A DNA stretch of 64,000 nt. Origin: Curvibacter sp. GWA2_63_95. Lineage in GTDB: Bacteria; Pseudomonadota; Gammaproteobacteria; Burkholderiales; Burkholderiaceae_C. The notes beneath the pieces were generated by a model that saw only the letters and a program-made list of their open reading frames with translations, ran no database searches and was not told where the DNA came from. Position numbers and translations under genes: made by a program. Numbering within the stretch: the stretch's first letter is position 1; every line of letters starts with the position of its first letter. The stretch spans positions 62,001 to 126,000 of the forward strand of contig MGPB01000001.1 of assembly GCA_001795455.1 (NCBI GenBank), written 5' to 3'. Positions 6,338 to 34,398 of this stretch are shown here, piece after piece.

Positions 6338-6808
6338 TTACGCTTCTCCGCCAAAGCGCTGGGTCAGGTTCTCGATGTATTGCTCCACCATCTTCTCAAA
6401 CTCGGCTTCGGCCACGGGGCCGGCCACCATCTTCATGAGGCCGGGCAGGGGCAGGGTCAGTTCGCCCTGAATTTCCAGTTCCAGCTTGGTGGACTTTTTG
6501 TTGTCGGTGATCTTCCAGCTGCCCGACACCAGTGCGTTGCCTTCGCCTTTCACGGGTGTCCAGACAATGGTGCCCTTGGATTTGTTGGACACGTACTTGG
6601 AGGCGTACACCGTTTGCAGGCTGATGGACGCGATGCCGATCTTTTCCATCTCCCAGCGGTAGGCGCCGCCGCCCAGGTCTACCAACTGGTCAACCTTGGG
6701 GAAGTGGCTGGCTGAGGTGGGCACGTCAGACAGGACTTCAAAAACCTCGGCCGCCTTGGCCTTGACTTCAAATTCGTAACCCAGGTTGATCTCTACGGTA
6801 ACGGCCAT
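6338..6808 (-). CDS. SRPBCC family protein (CoxG-like fold)
   Basis: A 156-residue START-like (SRPBCC) protein with a predicted hydrophobic ligand cavity. Family signs are the N-terminal strand with VFEVLSDV, the central HFPKVDQLVDLGGGAYRWEM segment and the C-terminal helix AEAEFEKMVEQYIENL. Best matches by eye are CoxG/polyketide cyclase-like proteins of unknown role; there are no CO dehydrogenase genes nearby, so the CoxG name would be misleading. No signal peptide. The start ATG at 6808 follows a GGAGA-like site (AAGGAGACAGACACC on the coding strand). Ligand unknown. Confidence 0.75.
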   Translation of the reverse strand: MAVTVEINLGYEFEVKAKAAEVFEVLSDVPTSASHFPKVDQLVDLGGGAYRWEMEKIGIASISLQTVYASKYVSNKSKGTIVWTPVKGEGNALVSGSWKITDNKKSTKLELEIQGELTLPLPGLMKMVAGPVAEAEFEKMVEQYIENLTQRFGGEA

Positions 6809-6901
6809 GGTGTCTGTCTCCTTGTTGTGAATGCTGTGGGCGCATGTTACTGCGCGCAGTGGTGGCCGGGGCTGGAGCTGGCTGCCTAAAACGCGCCGAG
6901 C

Positions 6902-7432
6902 TCAGTGCGGCCCGCGCAGTCGCTGCAGCGTGAGCTGCAGCAGGCGCGCATCGGAGCTGGCACGGTGGCGCTGCGTGCCGCGTTCGCTGGCAATTTGCGC
7001 CTTCACGTCGTGCCACTGGTCGGCTTCTGCTTCGGTCAGCAGGCTGCGCAGGTTGTCCAGTTTGAAGCGGGGTGTCATCTCGGCCGCCTCAAACAGGGCC
7101 GACAGCCAGGTGTAGTCATTGGCCCAGCCGTCGGAGTACACGGTTTGGCCGGCCAGCTGTTCGTTCAGGCGGCGGGCTACGTCTTTGGCGGGCAGGCCGC
7201 GGGCTTGCAGCAGGTCGCGGGTGATGCGGTGCAGGGAAGCGGCACCTTCGTCCCAGTGGGTCCAGTCGTCCTCGGGTTGCACCAGGGTGCAGTAGGCGTG
7301 GCCGTCGGGAAGTACGTAGCCCACTTCGATCGGGTAACTGCTGCGGCCCAGGCCGGAGGCTTCAATGTCGAGCACCGTGGGCACGGCGGGTGAGAGGGAT
7401 GGCTTGGGGTGGGTCAAAGGGGAGGAATGCAT
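6902..7432 (-). CDS. DEDDh-type 3'-5' exonuclease
   Basis: A 176-residue small exonuclease domain protein (RNase T/DnaQ superfamily). The first acidic motif is VLDIEASGLG (Asp-x-Glu), the second lies in SDGWANDYTWLSALFE, and the last is HRASSDARLL (His and Asp of the DEDDh signature). No other domain is present, so it is a stand-alone nuclease rather than a polymerase proofreading subunit. The start at 7432 (MHSSPLTHPK) is chosen over an earlier in-frame codon because the upstream residues are low complexity and run into the divergent promoter region. Its substrate (DNA or RNA) cannot be told from sequence. Confidence 0.8.
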   Translation of the reverse strand: MHSSPLTHPKPSLSPAVPTVLDIEASGLGRSSYPIEVGYVLPDGHAYCTLVQPEDDWTHWDEGAASLHRITRDLLQARGLPAKDVARRLNEQLAGQTVYSDGWANDYTWLSALFEAAEMTPRFKLDNLRSLLTEAEADQWHDVKAQIASERGTQRHRASSDARLLQLTLQRLRGPH

Positions 7433-7561
7433 GGGGAAGGCGGCGCCTGCTGTTTGCCATTCTCCAGCAAGGCCCGGGCCAGGCCTGTACGGGTAAGCAC
7501 TAAGGCGCCTACGCCAAACGGGTGACAATGGGCGCCTCTTTCACTTTCGCCCCAACACGCC

Positions 7562-8443
<882 letters not shown>

Positions 8444-8452
8444 AAATAACAA

Positions 8453-8510
8453 TGAAAAGTGCCTCTATCCCTCATGAATAGTGCGCAGATAGCTCCTAAA
8501 TCAATAGCAA
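8453..8510 (+). repeat. Dispersed repeat family A overlapping a gene start
   Basis: About 58 bp that begins 10 bp after the DUF808 gene and runs through the first 12 codons of the next gene. GTGCGCAGATAGCTCC and ATAGCAA mark the family core. The ATG of the exporter (8474) lies inside the repeat, so the repeat supplies both its leader and its N-terminal residues. Confidence 0.75.
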
Positions 8511-9418
8511 CTGGTTTGTTTTTGGCGATCGCAGGCGCGATTGCCTTCAGTGGCAAGGCCATCATCGTCAAGCTGGCCTACCGCTATGGGGTGGACGCGG
8601 TCACCCTCATCATGCTGCGCATGCTGATGGCGCTGCCTTTCTTTCTGGTCATCGTGTGGTGGACCGGGCGCAAGGCGCGCCTCTCGGGTGTGGCCCTGCC
8701 GCGCCTGACTGCCCACGACAAGTGGGGCATTCTGGGCCTGGGCGTCACCGGCTATTACCTGGCCAGCTTTCTGGACTTTGCCGGGCTGGCCTACATCTCG
8801 GCCTCGCTGGAACGGCTGATCCTGTATCTGAACCCCACGCTGGTGGTGCTGCTGGGTGTGGCGCTGTACGGCAGGCGTGTGACGGCGCCTCAGGCGCTGG
8901 GCATGGCGATCAGTTACGGCGGCGTGCTGCTGGTGTTTGGCCACGAGGTCACATTGGCTGGCGGTGATGTGGCGCTGGGCGCGCTCTTGGTGCTGGGCAG
9001 CGCCATCAGCTACGCGCTGTACCTGTCGTACAGCGGTGAGCTGGTCAAGCGCCTGGGCTCGCTGCGCCTGGTGGGTCTGGCCACCAGTGTGGCCTGCGTG
9101 CTGTGCATCGCGCAGTTCGTGGTGCTGCGCCCGCTGAACACCGCTTTTGCCGTGGCGCCCGAGGTGCTGTGGCTGTCCCTGCTCAACGCCACCGCCTGCA
9201 CCGTGGTGCCGGTGCTGATGGTCATGATGGCGATCGAGCGCATTGGCGCCGGCCTGGCCGCACAGGTGGGCATGGTGGGTCCCATGTCCACCATCGCCAT
9301 GGGTGTGCTGCTGCTGGACGAGCCCATGAACGGCTGGGTGGTGGGCGGCACGGTGCTGGTGCTGTTGGGCGTGTACGTGGTGAGCCGCCAGCGCGCGGCG
9401 GCACCGGTGGCCGACTGA
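8474..9418 (+). CDS. EamA-family (DMT) transporter
   Basis: A 314-residue drug/metabolite transporter with ten predicted transmembrane helices in two EamA halves (about residues 15-145 and 160-295). Substrate unknown; family members export amino acids or metabolites. I chose the ATG at 8474; an in-frame GTG at 8459 would add five residues. No good Shine-Dalgarno site is visible because the 5' region is a copy of repeat family A. The first dozen residues (MNSAQIAPKSIA) are repeat-encoded and precede the first helix. It may be translated by coupling from the DUF808 gene upstream. Confidence 0.82.
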   Translation: MNSAQIAPKSIATGLFLAIAGAIAFSGKAIIVKLAYRYGVDAVTLIMLRMLMALPFFLVIVWWTGRKARLSGVALPRLTAHDKWGILGLGVTGYYLASFLDFAGLAYISASLERLILYLNPTLVVLLGVALYGRRVTAPQALGMAISYGGVLLVFGHEVTLAGGDVALGALLVLGSAISYALYLSYSGELVKRLGSLRLVGLATSVACVLCIAQFVVLRPLNTAFAVAPEVLWLSLLNATACTVVPVLMVMMAIERIGAGLAAQVGMVGPMSTIAMGVLLLDEPMNGWVVGGTVLVLLGVYVVSRQRAAAPVAD

Positions 9419-9440
9419 ATTATTTTCTGGAGACAACACA

Positions 9441-10235
9441 ATGGACTTGGGAATCAAGGGCAAATGGGCGCTGGTGTGCGGCGCCAGCAAGGGGCTGGGC
9501 CTGGGCTGTGCGCAGGCACTGGTGGCCGAGGGCGTGAATGTGCTGATGGTGGCGCGTGGGCACGAGGCGCTGCAGCAAAGTGCTATGAATTTGGAAGCTG
9601 CTTACGCAGTATCCACGGGCGCTGAGGTGCTGTTTTGTGCCCAAGACATCACCACCGAGGCCGGCCGCGCCGCGGTGTTCGCCATGCGCAGCCAGTTCGA
9701 CATCGTGGTCACCAACGCGGGCGGCCCACCCACGGGCGACTTCCGCGACTGGGACCGCGAGGCCTGGATCAAAGCGGTGGACGCCAACATGCTCACGCCC
9801 ATCGAGCTCATCAAGGCCACGGTGGACGGCATGGCCGCTCGCGGCTTTGGGCGCATCGTCAACATCACCTCCAGCTCGGTCAAATCACCCATCGACATCC
9901 TGGGCCTGTCCAACGGCGCACGCAGCGGCCTCACCGGTTTTGTCGCCGGCGTGGCACGCAGCAGCCTGGCCGCCAAGGGGGTGACGATCAACAATCTCTT
10001 GCCTGGCAAGTTCGACACCGACCGCATTGCCACGACGGTGAAGGCCGCGGCGGCCAAGACGGGCAAGAGTGTGGACGAGGTGCGCGCCGCGCAGCAGGCG
10101 CAGATTCCCATGGGGCGTTATGGCACGCCCCAGGAGTTTGGGCAGGTCTGTGCTTTCTTGTGCAGCCAGCAGGCTAGCTATATGACGGGACAAAACGTGT
10201 TGCTGGATGGTGGGGCTTATCCGGGGACCTACTAG
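9441..10235 (+). CDS. SDR-family oxidoreductase lacking the Tyr-Lys pair
   Basis: A 264-residue short-chain dehydrogenase/reductase fold protein. The cofactor motif is GASKGLGLG (residues 14-22) and the NAG motif is TNAGG (91-95). The SSS stretch at 144-146 holds the usual catalytic serine. The YxxxK motif is replaced: alignment on GLTGF puts Ser157 and Arg161 where Tyr and Lys normally sit. It may be inactive as a classical SDR or use another mechanism; related proteins with SNGAR at this site exist to my knowledge. Residues about 46-65 are encoded by an inverted copy of repeat family A. A GGAGA site precedes the ATG. The gene follows the DMT exporter by 22 bp. Confidence 0.82.
   Translation: MDLGIKGKWALVCGASKGLGLGCAQALVAEGVNVLMVARGHEALQQSAMNLEAAYAVSTGAEVLFCAQDITTEAGRAAVFAMRSQFDIVVTNAGGPPTGDFRDWDREAWIKAVDANMLTPIELIKATVDGMAARGFGRIVNITSSSVKSPIDILGLSNGARSGLTGFVAGVARSSLAAKGVTINNLLPGKFDTDRIATTVKAAAAKTGKSVDEVRAAQQAQIPMGRYGTPQEFGQVCAFLCSQQASYMTGQNVLLDGGAYPGTY
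9580..9636 (-). repeat. Repeat family A inside the SDR reading frame
   Basis: An inverted copy within codons of the SDR gene. Read on the minus strand it has CAGCGCCCGTGG, TGCGTAAGCAGCTTC and ATAGCA in family order. It is read as SAMNLEAAYAVSTGAEVLF in the protein and keeps the frame open. Confidence 0.75.
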
Positions 10236-10280
10236 TTATTTTGGGGGAGATTTTTTGTTCGCCTAAACCGCTTTTTTGGA

Positions 10281-10635
10281 CACCCACTCCCCCAGCCCCT
10301 CGCCCCGTCGGCGAGGGGAGCCTTTGAACAGCCGATTTGGGGGCTGCGCTCCGGCTACGGTGCTACACAAGTACCACTGCCAATAGATGGGTACGCCACG
10401 GCCAGCGCCAACGGTTGTGGTGAATAGAAAAAAGCTGGTGCGGAGCCACTGGCGGGCGCAGCCGCCAGCGTTGGCAAACACATTCCTCCGAAGTCCCACA
10501 ACCGCAGTCACAGGCCGTGGAGCGAACTGACGGTGGCCACCTCACTCCAGTCGCCACGCAGTCGGCGCGCAACCACCAAATATGGCTGTTAAAGGCTCCC
10601 CTCGCCGACGGGGCGAGGGGCTGGGGGAGTGGGTG
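10281..10635. mobile_element. 355-bp inverted-repeat element (MITE-like), copy 1
   Basis: The left end (10281-10333, starting CACCCACTCCCCCAGCCCC) and right end (10584-10635) are inverted repeats of about 53 bp with one indel; the outer 41 bp are perfect. The T- and A-rich flanks just outside (10271-10277 and about 10636-10644) extend the pairing to GC on each side. The ~250-bp core has no reading frame resembling a transposase. A second copy in the same orientation lies at 51143-51498 with clear core similarity. It fills the 452-bp gap between the convergent SDR and AraC genes, and its ends would form strong hairpins followed by T runs in RNA, so it may also act as a terminator. Confidence 0.8.
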
Positions 10636-25117: not shown

Positions 25118-25210
25118 GCTTGTTTCCGGTTCCAGGCGGGCAAAAGGGCGTGATCTTACAAGGCCGCGGGGCGGCACCGGGATACAGTTTACCGGCCCGC
25201 TCTATTTTCA

Positions 25211-25269
25211 TGTCAAATAGGCCGCTAGACCCCATGGATATTGCGCGAGCAGCTACGAAAACCATAGCA
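25211..25269 (+). repeat. Dispersed repeat family A
   Basis: A well-preserved copy (GTCAAATAGGCC, TTGCGCGAGCAGCTACG, CATAGCA) in the gap between udk and the small reading frame at 25314. It marks the left edge of the accessory pocket. Confidence 0.8.
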
Positions 25270-25481: not shown

Positions 25482-25822
25482 CCGAGCTCGTCCAGCAGCA
25501 CTTGCACGGAGTCAAGCAGAGCGGGCAGGGCGCTCCGGGTGATGTTCCAGACCGTGCCCACGCTCACCGTGGCGTATCCATGGATCAGTTGATTGCGGAA
25601 CGCCACGATTTGCGGCAGGTCTGGAATACGTGCGGCAATCGCGGCATCCAGTTTGGATAGCTGGTTGAGTGCTTCGCCGATGATTTCAAACTTGCGCTCT
25701 ACCGCAGCCTGGGCCATCGCGTTGCCTTCATACGCCGTCACATCCATACCACCGGTAAACGACTGAATCGCCAAAGCCGAATCGCGCACATCCCACAAAA
25801 AGGCACGTGGGTCACGCTGCAT
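25478..25822 (-). CDS. hepT: HepT-family RNase toxin (DUF86)
   Basis: A 114-residue HEPN toxin. The active-site motif Rx4HxY is intact: Arg76, His81 and Tyr83 in RNQLIHGY. The all-helical fold is otherwise typical (VERKFEIIGEALNQLSK). HepT and MntA form a type VII toxin-antitoxin pair in which MntA adenylylates the Tyr of the HEPN motif. The gene overlaps the 3' end of mntA by 11 bp, so the two are translated together. Whether it guards against phage or is a stabilisation module is unknown. Confidence 0.88.
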   Translation of the reverse strand: MQRDPRAFLWDVRDSALAIQSFTGGMDVTAYEGNAMAQAAVERKFEIIGEALNQLSKLDAAIAARIPDLPQIVAFRNQLIHGYATVSVGTVWNITRSALPALLDSVQVLLDELG

Positions 25823-26120
25823 AAACAGCTTCGCGGTTGCTATTGATGCTGGCCAGCACGTAGGGGTTACGGACTGCGCCAGGCTCTACCAAGTCCACTC
25901 CACGGCCCAGCAGGGCTTCCAGGTCTGCTTTGGCACCAAACAAGGCGTTGAGCCCAGGCTGGACGCCCGGCGCAAACTCCACCAGAAAGTCAGCGTCACT
26001 GTTGGCAGGGTCAAAGTCATCGGCCCGTGCCGCCGAGCCAAACACTTCCAGCCGCTGAATGCGGTAGCGCTGGCAGATGGCAGAAATGCCTGTGCGGTGT
26101 TGGGCGATGGCTGGGTGCAT
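25812..26120 (-). CDS. mntA: MntA-family nucleotidyltransferase antitoxin
   Basis: A 102-residue minimal nucleotidyltransferase. The core motif is FGSAARADDFDPANSDADFL, with the GS pair and the DAD metal-binding pair; the common subfamily form has GT after the Arg and here it is AD. It should AMPylate and neutralise HepT. The start is the ATG at 26120 (MHPAIAQH); the longer open frame upstream runs through a family A repeat and is not coding. It is the first gene of the two-gene operon. Confidence 0.87.
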   Translation of the reverse strand: MHPAIAQHRTGISAICQRYRIQRLEVFGSAARADDFDPANSDADFLVEFAPGVQPGLNALFGAKADLEALLGRGVDLVEPGAVRNPYVLASINSNREAVYAA

Positions 26121-26152
26121 GACTTGGAGTTTACTGGAGCGCCCCGTTGATG

Positions 26153-26210
26153 TGTCAAATCGGCCTCTAGCCCACGTGGAGTATGCGCAAGCAGCTACCA
26201 AAACAATAGT
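26153..26210 (+). repeat. Dispersed repeat family A
   Basis: A near-consensus copy (CGGCCTCTAGCCC, GTATGCGCAAGCAGCTACC, AATAG) between the divergent mntA and RNB genes. It is the closest to consensus in the window together with the one at 29444. Confidence 0.82.
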
Positions 26211-28217: not shown

Positions 28218-28536
28218 GCGCAAGATTGTGCCCGGCAGATATGCTCCTTGCCCGATAGGTCCGAAACACCGCATCAAAACGCAGGTTTGCCAAAAGAGAG
28301 TGGGTGAAAATTTGATTGAAATTGACCGCTATCCCTCGTGGAATATGCGCAAACAGCTACCAAAAGCGTAGCAATCTTAGCCTTGCAAACTAGAGCAAAG
28401 CCCCGGTGGCTTGCACCTTTGCCGCTTGGCGGCGAGTATTTCCTGCCACCCATGGCGGCCCCATTCATCCAGCCGGTGCTCACGGGCTCGGCGGTATGGG
28501 CCATGGTGGCGAGGGCGGCCAGCAGCAACGCAGCGC
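28218..28536. other. Intergenic region with a repeat and a gene remnant
   Basis: About 319 bp between the TerB gene start and the DMT gene end, both on the minus strand. It holds the TerB leader, one family A repeat (28317-28373) and sequence resembling the start of a YHS-domain protein (28410-28540). Nothing else is visible. Confidence 0.5.
28317..28373 (+). repeat. Dispersed repeat family A
   Basis: A well-kept copy (TGAAATTGACCGCTATCCC, ATGCGCAAACAGCTACC, GTAGCAA) in the TerB-DMT gap. Confidence 0.8.
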
Positions 28537-29409: not shown

Positions 29410-29443
29410 GGCGGAGCAGTGTACGCGTGGGGTGCTATTTACT

Positions 29444-29502
29444 ATGAAATTGGCCTCTAGCGCCCGTGGAGTATGCGCAAGCAGCTACTAAAAGCGTAGC
29501 AA
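29444..29502 (+). repeat. Dispersed repeat family A, near-consensus
   Basis: TGAAATTGGCCTCTAGCGCC, GTATGCGCAAGCAGCTACT and GTAGCAAA. It lies between the DMT gene start and the stop of the DUF924 gene upstream on the same strand. Confidence 0.82.
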
Positions 29503-29516
29503 ATGCCAAGCAAAAC

Positions 29517-30056
29517 CTAGAACGACGACCCCGGCTCACTCAGGAAGGCCAGCTCCTCCGCGCTGGAGCTGCGGCCCAGGATGGTGTTGCGGTGGGGGTA
29601 GCGGCCGAAACGGTCGATGATGGCTTTGTGGCGTAGCTCGAAGTTCAGATTGTCTTGTATGCCCAACTGCGTAAACAGCGCTACCGCTTGCGTATGCACC
29701 AGCGCGGACTCGCTGTGCATGTAGGGCATGTAGGCAAACACCCGCTGCTCTTCAGGCAGGCTGCGGTCTTGCCCGCTGGCCACCAGCTCTTGCGCCAACA
29801 CCAGCGCCAGCGCGTCCTGCGCAAAGGCTTGCTTTGTTGCGCGGTAGACGTTGCGCGAGAGCTGGTCCAACACGATGATCTCCGCCAGCCGCCCCTCAGC
29901 CGTGGCGCGCCACGCAAACAGCTCACACTGCGCCGCCGTCTTCAGCGTGTCGCCAAAGCGCGCGCGGATGGTTTCGTCCAGCACGGCGTCTTTGATGAAG
30001 TGCTGCTTGGGGGTTAGCTCATCGAACCAGAAGTGGAGGATGGATTGGGGTTGCAT
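29517..30056 (-). CDS. DUF924 family protein
   Basis: A 179-residue helical protein of the DUF924 family (TPR-like fold; function not established). Family hallmarks are ILHFWFDELTPKQHF at the start, IIVLDQLSRNVYR in the centre, YMPYMHSESALVH and DRFGRYPHRNTILGR. The start is the ATG at 30056 (MQPQSI); the longer frame upstream enters AT-rich sequence next to the defence operon. It sits at the composition border, with ordinary G+C inside the gene and AT-rich DNA immediately beyond it. Confidence 0.87.
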   Translation of the reverse strand: MQPQSILHFWFDELTPKQHFIKDAVLDETIRARFGDTLKTAAQCELFAWRATAEGRLAEIIVLDQLSRNVYRATKQAFAQDALALVLAQELVASGQDRSLPEEQRVFAYMPYMHSESALVHTQAVALFTQLGIQDNLNFELRHKAIIDRFGRYPHRNTILGRSSSAEELAFLSEPGSSF

Positions 30057-30155: not shown

Positions 30156-31106
30156 CTAACTTTGTATCCAGGCAATTGCGTCGTCGAGTGGTTGTCGTTC
30201 GCCAACTGGGACAACGCAAAGATGATTTGCCGCGTGCTTGAGCTTTCCCTCCCGCGAGCCCTTTGCAATTGCGTTGGCAACATCTGCAGTCACGTTGTGC
30301 TCTTCTGCCAAATTGCCTATACAGGCCCAGATCGCCTGTTCGCCAAGGTGTCCATGGCAAAGCCAACGGCCAGGCTCTGCAGTTTGAAACGCGGCTAGGT
30401 AAGTGTCGGCGCCGGAATTTACCGAAGGTACAAAGTTGACTGGCAGTTGCAGTCCACGGTGAGAAAGTACCTGTACCAAACTCTGGTCTAGCTGGTAGCG
30501 ATTGCCAGACCAACTTACACGCTTCTCGCAAATCGCACCATCAGATCTTCCAAGTGCGCTGGCAGCCTTTAACTCTAAAGAATATGCAGTCGCCAAAGCA
30601 ACCATTTTGTGAAAACGACTTCCGAGATCTCTTAAAAACTCTGCCGATATTTCATCTGGATAGGATTGCTTGAGATATGCCGCGGCGCTCGATATGCTGA
30701 AGAAATAGTTTTCAATCGAGTGTCCAATCGTAGTGAAACTCCCTGGCCCCTGTGTTGGGGGGGTCCACTGATTTGGTACGCCGTTGTTCAGAGGAATGCC
30801 GTCCCATTCCCTGTCAGTGAGAGAACCGAATTTTGCTAAAACTAGCTCTTTGGTCGGAGAGGTTAGTGCTTCAATGGCAGACCTTATTGCACCGATGCGC
30901 GCCTTGTTTCCAAGCCCATGGAGTTCCGTTCCGGTAATGATTTGCACGCAATCGACTACTCCCTTTGAAGAAATCTGTCTTTCTTCCTCTTTGTCAAGCT
31001 TCAGTCGATTGATGATTGTTCTATCTGAAACTCCCTCTGTTAAAAGTGTTTTCCCGGAGCGACGGAGGACTGTATTTATGTAGCCAGAAAGTGAGTATCC
31101 CTGCAT
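30156..31106 (-). CDS. DUF4435/Toprim-like nuclease, PARIS AriB-like effector
   Basis: A 316-residue protein with traits of the DUF4435 Toprim-related family. Glu24 lies in LLTEGVSDRTI (the Toprim acidic residue). An acidic DxExD-type motif is at Asp98-Glu100-Asp102 (TDREWD), and the hallmark IENYFF is at 131-136. In PARIS systems the DUF4435 partner AriB is held by the ATPase AriA and, when a phage anti-restriction protein is sensed, is released to cleave tRNA. Gene order (ATPase first, 2-bp gap) and sizes fit that pair. The DNA is markedly AT-rich compared with flanking genes, indicating acquisition. Assignment is by motif and context, not by alignment; another AAA/Toprim pair is possible. 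Confidence 0.68.
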   Translation of the reverse strand: MQGYSLSGYINTVLRRSGKTLLTEGVSDRTIINRLKLDKEEERQISSKGVVDCVQIITGTELHGLGNKARIGAIRSAIEALTSPTKELVLAKFGSLTDREWDGIPLNNGVPNQWTPPTQGPGSFTTIGHSIENYFFSISSAAAYLKQSYPDEISAEFLRDLGSRFHKMVALATAYSLELKAASALGRSDGAICEKRVSWSGNRYQLDQSLVQVLSHRGLQLPVNFVPSVNSGADTYLAAFQTAEPGRWLCHGHLGEQAIWACIGNLAEEHNVTADVANAIAKGSREGKLKHAANHLCVVPVGERQPLDDAIAWIQS

Positions 31107-31108
31107 AG

Positions 31109-32533
31109 CTACTCCGCGCTGTCGTCCTCAAACAAACCCTCTTGCAAACTTCGCGTCAAAGTTGGTTCGAAATCTTGTGTTTCTTCCAAGTGATCGCCGC
31201 CGACTTCCGGTGAGTGTGTGCAGGCGATGATTTGTCTGTGTGCCGATTGCTGCATTAGCTCCCTCAAGATTTGTCTTTGCCAGTCAACATGCAATGACAA
31301 TTCTGGTTCGTCTATAAGAAAGGTCCCGCTTTTAAATCTTGAGCGGCTAGCCGAATAGAGCATGGTCAAAATCTGTTTCTCACCTGACGATAATGATGAA
31401 AGACCATAACTCCTCCCGCCCTCAGTTCCGACTGATACGGAAGATCTAGTACGCGTTCTTGAATCCACAGAGCCAATTTGCAAAGTTTTTTTATCGAGAA
31501 ACTTGTTTATTGAAGACTCGAAATCGCGACTCTTTTGAAATGCTTGCTTGCGCTCCTCTTTTCGCGCAACTAATGTGTCTAAGTAGAGATTTAAAACTGC
31601 ATTTTCGATGCCTTTGGTGTCGCGACCTCCGTAACGCTTTAAATGATCAGTAGCTTCACTCAAATTTTGATAAATACGGAAAGATTCGCGATTCCCTAGC
31701 TGATAGTCGGTGCTGTTTAGAGAATCTGCAATGGATGCCAAGAGTTGATCGGTTCCGACTGTTGAATCCGGGGTGTCAAGACCAACAATTGTCCGAAATA
31801 CTTTAACAAACACATCCGCAAACATATTCTGTTCCCGTTGTGCTGTTTCTAGTTGGGCAGTACGCCACTCCGAGGAGAGGCCGTCATCAACCTCTAGTAT
31901 TGATGGATAACGAACGATTGGAACGAATTGACCAAACCATTGGCGGCATTGAAGCGTTTTGCGGGCGGTCGTCGCAGCTTCTTCTCGGATAGCACGTGTT
32001 TCTATTGCCTCTCGAGGTAATCGAGATAGTAAACGCCCTGTGGCTTCACGAAGATTCAAAACCTCCTTAACTTCTATTTCCTCCAGCTCTGTCTCTTTTG
32101 CTGAATCTCGATAGTAAGTGGCGGCACCACCTTGGATGCGCTCTAGAACCGAGCGAAATGCGGGTAAATATGTCGCTCGATCTCCAATGGCCGCTCTAAT
32201 CGCGTCAGATTCCGCTTCACTGAGCGTGCCTGACTCTCCTTCAAAGGAAGTTGTGTTGCCATTCAAAGAAACTGAGCAATTCCCATCAGGCCCCCCCCGA
32301 TGTATTTCCAAGACGTCATCAGAAAACGTTGAAATTCGAATGCGTCGGAAATTTAGGTAATTGAATCTTTTGAAGTCAAGTTCAAGCGCATTTGCCAATA
32401 TGTGCAGCGCTGTTGTCTTTCCTCTACCGTTCTTACCGTAGATGATGTTTAGGCCAGGTTTGAACTCCATTTGCAGATCGAACTGATCATGAAGTCCCTC
32501 TACGGATAAGCGGCTTATTCCATTTGTTTTCAT
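31109..32533 (-). CDS. AAA/ABC-type ATPase, PARIS AriA-like sensor
   Basis: A 474-residue OLD/AAA_21-type ATPase. Walker A is GKNGRGKTT (33-41). The ABC-like signature is LSSLSSGEKQIL (about 379-390), Walker B is FLIDEPELSLH (about 405-415) and the switch histidine is in ACTHSPEV (about 437-444). The middle 100-370 is a helical insertion. With the DUF4435 gene directly downstream it matches the two-gene PARIS (AriA-AriB) arrangement, in which AriA senses phage anti-restriction proteins. GAGGGGGGCAAG precedes the ATG. A 60-base sample (31561-31620) has 23 G+C, against 40 in glnS (33841-33900). It starts 44 bp after the glnS stop, so it may be read from glnS or from its own weak promoter. Confidence 0.7.
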   Translation of the reverse strand: MKTNGISRLSVEGLHDQFDLQMEFKPGLNIIYGKNGRGKTTALHILANALELDFKRFNYLNFRRIRISTFSDDVLEIHRGGPDGNCSVSLNGNTTSFEGESGTLSEAESDAIRAAIGDRATYLPAFRSVLERIQGGAATYYRDSAKETELEEIEVKEVLNLREATGRLLSRLPREAIETRAIREEAATTARKTLQCRQWFGQFVPIVRYPSILEVDDGLSSEWRTAQLETAQREQNMFADVFVKVFRTIVGLDTPDSTVGTDQLLASIADSLNSTDYQLGNRESFRIYQNLSEATDHLKRYGGRDTKGIENAVLNLYLDTLVARKEERKQAFQKSRDFESSINKFLDKKTLQIGSVDSRTRTRSSVSVGTEGGRSYGLSSLSSGEKQILTMLYSASRSRFKSGTFLIDEPELSLHVDWQRQILRELMQQSAHRQIIACTHSPEVGGDHLEETQDFEPTLTRSLQEGLFEDDSAE

Positions 32534-32577
32534 CTTGCCCCCCTCAGCTTAATTTTAAATTTCTTGGGTGAAGTGAA

Positions 32578-34398
<1,821 letters not shown>

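Follow-up and report, generated by a model that had tools for sequence, protein, structure and literature searches.

The closest described relative of the locus reported here is the PARIS system of Escherichia coli, in which the effector AriB is paired with the ATPase AriA and which responds to DNA mimics with anti-restriction activity, for example Ocr or Arn. Its mechanism is covered by two articles, consulted as partial texts (PMC12409363, PMC9122126), and by a commentary (PMC11455837). According to the accessible part of PMC9122126, PARIS occurs in 5.2% of genomes, and its detection rule requires a match to the Pfam model DUF4435 at 27 bits. Defence hotspots beside core genes are already known as well, e.g., cDHS1 and cDHS2 of Pseudomonas aeruginosa (PMC10250203, partial text).

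The window analyzed in this study is a stretch of 64,000 nucleotides from Curvibacter sp. GWA2_63_95 (contig MGPB01000001.1, positions 62,001 to 126,000). It very probably carries a complete, horizontally acquired and divergent PARIS abortive-infection cassette, ariA-ariB, which has no evident promoter of its own and lies in a defence hotspot between glnS and a DUF924 gene. This reading is based on the homology and fold of the proteins, the conservation of their catalytic residues, the order of the genes, a patchy occurrence among relatives and the position in a variable slot. The locus is composed of the following features:

29517..30056, minus strand: DUF924 gene behind ariB, right border of the proposed hotspot (Pfam DUF924, 1.1e-61; the start at 30056 was chosen by us)
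30156..31106, minus strand: ariB, Toprim/DUF4435-like effector of 316 amino acids (open reading frame, profile and fold match)
31109..32533, minus strand: ariA, ABC/OLD-type AAA_21 ATPase of 474 amino acids (open reading frame and homology)
32534..32577, minus strand: spacer of 44 bp between the glnS stop and the ariA start, without a terminator-like site
32578..34398, minus strand: glnS, left border of the proposed hotspot (match to solved glutaminyl-tRNA synthetases, 2e-179)

Thus the two minus-strand genes, ariA first, have the positions and lengths given in the original prediction, which had also rightly placed them 2 bp apart and directly downstream of glnS. The predicted fall in G+C content was found too: counted in windows of 500 bases it drops from about 0.63 to 0.42-0.51 at the pair, with 46% and 49% over the ORFs of ariA and ariB and about 63% in the surroundings. 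Neither a tRNA or tmRNA gene (ARAGORN) nor an Rfam match was detected in the window.

The ATPase matches E. coli AriA (8ux9, chain B) with an E-value of 6.9e-55 over residues 5-449 of 474, whereas its best non-AriA match in the PDB, the ATPase of retron Ec78, reaches 4.3e-7. It is also recognized by the PADLOC model for AriA (1.4e-26) and by Pfam AAA_21 (1e-21). For the 316-residue partner, no PADLOC, Pfam or NCBIfam model gave a match at E ≤ 1, so that the profile search proposed for the pair succeeded for AriA and was silent for AriB. The DUF4435 hallmark named in the original prediction is visible by eye (GHSIENYFF), but Pfam DUF4435 does not match the protein; at E ≤ 0.001 it matches nothing in the whole genome, while it does match in 2 of 14 control genomes.

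The family of the partner was settled by a structure prediction made from 26 sequences (mean pLDDT 95.3, pTM 0.92), since the only two PDB matches found by Foldseek at E ≤ 0.001 are both AriB (7.4e-12 and 1.7e-10, TM-scores 0.75-0.82, about 20% identity). In a phmmer search of the PDB with the single sequence, only AriB was found below 0.01 (best 3.4e-4), and a profile of 12 related sequences reached AriB of the PDB at 1.5e-25, the match spanning residues 3-202 of the 313 in the profile. Fold and homology outweigh the missing DUF4435 match, and the pair is PARIS, with an ATPase that matches AriA over nearly its full length and a partner whose profile and fold point to AriB only. A lack of any DUF4435 match had been named beforehand as a ground for giving up the assignment; the match is indeed lacking, but this does not overturn PARIS since the fold is that of AriB. 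Judged by the modelled fold, it is the profile that has a blind spot here, the 27 bits being a detection threshold and not a feature of the system. The window AriB lacks the match demanded by the published rule, as given in the partial text, and the locus would be missed by it for this reason.

Relatives were collected by several searches. With a four-sequence alignment, 30 loci in genome contigs and 3 in viral contigs were found, while a single-sequence pattern yielded none in genome contigs and 1 in a viral contig; a search of plasmids with AriA added 2 loci, in both of which an annotated DUF4435 gene follows. In all 35 related loci AriB is preceded by an AriA match; this match is partial near a contig end in L028 and L039, AriB is cut by a contig end in L035, and AriB of L037 was placed by the search without a called ORF. 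The AriB alignment comprises the window and 27 of these loci (28 sequences); L020, L022, L024, L030, L032, L033, L035 and L037 were excluded as near-duplicates or because of cut or poorly bounded ORFs. The window AriB is 14-49% identical to the others. The PADLOC model for AriB recognizes 25 of these 28 sequences (E ≤ 0.01), but not that of the window.

In a FastTree tree of AriB the window is grouped with 11 others (support 0.999); the same 12 are grouped in the AriA tree of 27 sequences with a support of only 0.496, both trees being midpoint-rooted. Besides two viral contigs, the group includes members from Polaromonas, Massilia, Janthinobacterium, Hydrogenophaga, Variovorax, Rhizobiaceae, Agrobacterium, Ensifer and Ectothiorhodospiraceae. 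Pfam DUF4435 recognizes just 2 of these 12 proteins (E ≤ 0.01); since the published rule largely misses this group, the figure of 5.2% taken from the partial text is probably a lower bound.

The closest system found is the PARIS of Polaromonas sp. MAG b69 (L010), with AriA 77% and AriB 49% identical to the window. It is likewise located downstream of glnS, by 1.25 kb, but differs in that a 325-aa hydrolase-like gene sits between glnS and ariA and that no DUF924 match was found in the 11.6 kb downstream. Apart from this, gene pairs whose first protein has partial AriA similarity, covering 12-15% of the query, were seen in the Escherichia phage vB_EcoM-813R9 (L008, 2975-5078) and the Sinorhizobium phage Aussie (L009, 566-2775); the first protein is annotated as ATPase or hypothetical, the partner as hypothetical.

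The functional residues of both proteins were located in the window as follows:

32411..32437, minus strand: Walker A motif GKNGRGKTT of AriA, residues 33-41 (G36, G38 and K39 invariant in 27 of 27 sequences)
31373..31393, minus strand: ABC signature LSSGEKQ of AriA, residues 381-387 (S382-E385 invariant in 27 of 27)
31307..31312, minus strand: Walker B residues D408-E409 of AriA (invariant in 27 of 27)
31214..31216, minus strand: codon of the switch histidine His440 of AriA (invariant in 27 of 27)
31035..31037, minus strand: codon of Glu24 of AriB, aligned with E26 in the E. coli protein (the same residue in all 28 sequences)
30807..30815, minus strand: codons of D98-R99-E100 of AriB with the Toprim acidic pair, aligned with E. 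coli D88/E90 (E. coli numbering counted by us along the alignment)

All ATPase motifs named in the original prediction are present; the protein carries LIDEPE and CTHSP, the latter with the histidine. Across the 27 aligned AriA sequences N35, G36, G38, K39, S382-E385, D408-E411 and T439-S441 are invariant. The AriB motifs LLTEGVSD, TDREWD and IENYFF are found as well; E24, G25, D28, D52, D98, R99, G128-S130, E132-Y134 and G252-H253 are invariant in all 28 sequences. Of the three catalytic residues predicted beforehand, Glu24 and Asp98 hold, but Asp102 is replaced by Glu100. Asp102 was rejected because it is variable outside the group (Asp in 10 of 12 group members but in 2 of 16 other AriB) and Glu100 aligns with Glu90 of E. 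coli, a position occupied by Ala in 8v46. Position 100 is Glu in 26 and Asp in 2 of the 28 sequences. The E. coli catalytic acids E26, D88 and E90 all have counterparts in the window, and from this alignment Glu24, Asp98 and Glu100 are the predicted catalytic residues. In the available part of PMC12409363, E26A of E. coli AriB serves as the inactive control.

By analogy with E. coli PARIS, AriA would form an ATPase ring which keeps AriB inactive until it is set free by an anti-restriction protein of a phage, in most cases an acidic mimic of DNA. The freed AriB would dimerise and cut host tRNA with its Toprim site (Glu24, Asp98, Glu100), and this cleavage would stop translation and phage growth. 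A first-line type I restriction system was not found, as no HsdR N-terminal domain was detected in the genome at E ≤ 0.001 by a model which matches in 9 of 14 controls; PARIS functions in cells without EcoKI, according to the accessible part of PMC9122126.

The same machine could be directed at a different tRNA. A model of E. coli AriB places Lys60 and Lys64 on the anticodon loop, and defence is lost in the K60A, K64A mutant (PMC12409363, partial text). None of the 12 group members has lysine at the Lys64 column, where the residues are L, L, Y, L, L, S, L, M, L, L, V and I, and at the Lys60 column lysine or arginine is found in 3 of 12. Furthermore, the C-terminal third of AriB is unlike E. 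coli in sequence, because the profile match stops at residue 202 of 313. The 16 AriB outside the group weaken the absence of Lys64 as a special mark, since 13 of them lack lysine there too (Lys 3, Arg 1, gap 3); in addition, the loop is gapped in the alignment, and K68 and R70 nearby could substitute. From these sequence comparisons a different tRNA target is possible for the AriB of the group, and an effector directed not at the tRNAs Lys(UUU), Thr(UGU) and Asn(GUU) but at a different tRNA or another RNA is considered a minority option. The AriB of this group is a natural variant for testing how AriB picks its tRNA.

The divergent PARIS is rare among the relatives of its host. Of 100 genomes sampled from the genus, a search with the group profile recovered the system in 1, that of the window itself; for 49 of the 100, completeness is 90% or more and contamination 5% or less. 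With the single AriB protein 1 of 61 relatives was found, again the own genome, and in 399 genomes of the order the own protein plus two partial matches of about 50 residues (E 0.002). AriA was detected at E ≤ 1e-20 in the window genome alone among 398 genomes of the phylum, and AriB had no match in plasmids or phages at E ≤ 1e-5. Horizontal transfer of the pair is supported by base composition and by the presence in 1 of 100 genus genomes, in line with the recent transfer that had been predicted.

The site behind glnS was compared in 40 stretches from 39 genomes of the genus, which together with the window make 41 loci; glnS itself was matched in 52 of 61 searched genus genomes. A full-length DUF924 match follows glnS in 21 of the 41 loci, window included, at 26-7235 bp from the stop codon. 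In L087, L088, L100, L108 and L109 the distance is at most 300 bp, and these are empty or near-empty sites. Low-G+C ORFs (at least 100 aa, G+C ≤ 50%) occupy the slot in 16 of the 41 loci, and in 14 of these 16 the first one starts within 165 bp of the glnS stop. The slot was taken from glnS to DUF924, or as 3 kb where no full-length DUF924 is present; only ORFs of at least 100 aa were counted and L010 was excluded. So defined, 27 of 86 slot ORFs have a G+C content of at most 50%, vs 8 of 284 beyond the slot in the same stretches (Fisher p 1.1e-12, the test treating ORFs as independent, which those of one operon are not). All 27 low-G+C slot ORFs lie on the glnS strand, compared with 68 of all 86.

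In 12 of the 40 other genus loci proteins of the slot were scanned with PADLOC at E ≤ 1e-5. Strong defence matches were obtained in 9 of these 12, a biased rate, as the scanned ORFs were picked mainly for low G+C:

L073: a second, very distant PARIS (AriA 1.4e-27, AriB 7e-19; Pfam DUF4435 5.9e-18)
L074: dCTPase (2e-131) and PDC-S14 (3.5e-109)
L075: HEC-01A (1.2e-130)
L076: PDC-S20 (9.5e-65)
L079: HEC-01A (3.2e-102) and HEC-01B (8.4e-15)
L081: PD-Lambda-5 B (5.2e-114) beside an AAA_15 ATPase (best PADLOC match GajA, 7.5e-18), with no PD-Lambda-5 A among the matches listed
L084 and L092: NsnA (2.6e-72 and 6.5e-75) with HEPN-domain partners
L097: kinase (mad6 2.2e-39, PD-T4-6 4.5e-39) with a PP2C partner

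Of the others, L082 has a weak match (9.6e-7) and L083 and L098 have none at E ≤ 1e-5. Three loci were searched with Pfam only: L078 has a fimbrial protein, L099 part of a kinase, and L085 no match. Two low-G+C slot pairs have no clear defence match, one with HATPase domains and an unknown protein (L082, 8845-12249), the other with pentapeptide repeats and an unknown protein (L083, 10704-12458); both are candidates for undescribed systems. In other genera of the family 20 further stretches were collected and proteins of seven were scanned (8 with PADLOC, 10 with Pfam):

L144: AbiU (7e-32)
L148: C-5 DNA methylase
L150 and L152: first ORF after glnS with zeta-toxin domains
L158: AbiP/putAbiC-like protein
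L147 and L151: no match

These data suggest that the interval between glnS and DUF924 is a recurrent defence hotspot, with base composition as the sole control. In open-licence PMC full texts no description of a defence hotspot at glnS was found, although one may be published outside these. Unknown genes in the slot are good candidates for new defence systems.

Concerning the mode of insertion, likeness between genomes, judged by eye, mostly stops at the glnS stop codon and resumes near the DUF924 start. No shared att-like sequence was noticed by eye at the slot, and no integrase was found among the slot proteins scanned. Nucleotide identity along glnS and DUF924 had no sharp mosaic step in 20 comparisons, so that exchange by flanking homologous recombination is proposed only tentatively. 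Pieces of DUF924 accompany the slot in 10 of 41 loci (L074, L077, L079, L083, L096, L097, L100, L104, L105 and L112), with 5′ pieces upstream of the intact copy in L083 and L096 and 3′ pieces downstream of it in L074, L083 and L100. Seven pieces share a locus with an intact copy; five are closest to that copy and two, both in L083, to the copy of another genome. Insertion of a circle by a single crossover would fit the order of pieces in L074, L083, L096 and L100, but it was rejected, as six loci have no intact copy in the stretch, the ends of the pieces vary and the window has no piece.

The stretch of L074 from about 6400 to 10540, 4.3-8.4 kb past glnS, holds an intact DUF924 gene and, behind it, three pieces of the DUF924 3′ part. 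Each of the four has a repeat of 85 nt 18-27 bp behind it, and small ORFs lie between them; the array looks like serial insertion of units which end in a DUF924 3′ end and the repeat. In the window this intergenic repeat of about 85 nt is located at 29418-29502, 28317-28374, 26157-26203 and 25202-25269. At least 40 copies were scored in the genome (first-look candidates: 226), and the repeat has no Rfam match. Of 42 oriented glnS stretches, 19 contain it as well; in one of these, L010, it is confined to the part upstream of glnS. The listed start of a 129-aa ORF at 25812-26201 (minus strand), by eye an MNT-type nucleotidyltransferase, falls within one copy.

In a consensus scan of the coding strand, the nearest promoter-like match falls within ariA, with none in the spacer or glnS. 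From the layout alone, read-through from glnS is the simple reading for the transcription of ariAB. A wider proposal is that the glnS 3′ end is a read-through slot throughout the genus and family, filled with promoterless defence operons in the same direction without an integrase, and that its PARIS variant cuts another tRNA; as a whole we regard this as unlikely. The missing promoter-like site between glnS and ariA and the restriction of the type to one sampled genus genome would also suit a decayed or silent relic without present function. This is very improbable, as neither frame is interrupted or of unusual length and the residues conserved in PARIS are intact.

Septu consists of PtuA and the HNH nuclease PtuB, and in Gabija the ATPase-Toprim fusion GajA has the UvrD-like partner GajB. 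That the pair is an ATPase-nuclease system of such another family (Septu, Gabija, OLD or a retron ATPase) which resembles PARIS is the least credible reading and can practically be set aside: PtuA models of PADLOC do match the ATPase (2.4e-19), and retron, GajA and PtuA ATPases are weak PDB matches, but AriA is far ahead in the PDB (7e-55 vs 4e-7), the partner has the AriB fold rather than being an HNH nuclease like PtuB, and the Toprim protein is separate from the 474-aa ATPase, with glnS and DUF924 as the other neighbours.

The locus is a divergent PARIS, complete-looking and ordinary in kind, and the newer part is the glnS slot. Like E. coli PARIS (8ux9, 8v46), it has AriA homology over 445 residues, the AriB fold, matched Toprim residues and two proteins of similar size. 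Unlike E. coli PARIS, its AriB falls outside the Pfam DUF4435 and PADLOC AriB models and lacks Lys64. It is placed in a chromosomal glnS slot, whereas the E. coli system is found in P4-like satellites according to the partial text of PMC9122126. Like cDHS1 and cDHS2 of P. aeruginosa, as described in the available part of PMC10250203, the slot holds varied defence systems at a fixed place beside a core gene. In contrast to these, which have medians of 26 and 6 kb in one species, it has compact low-G+C ORFs and spans species of a genus.
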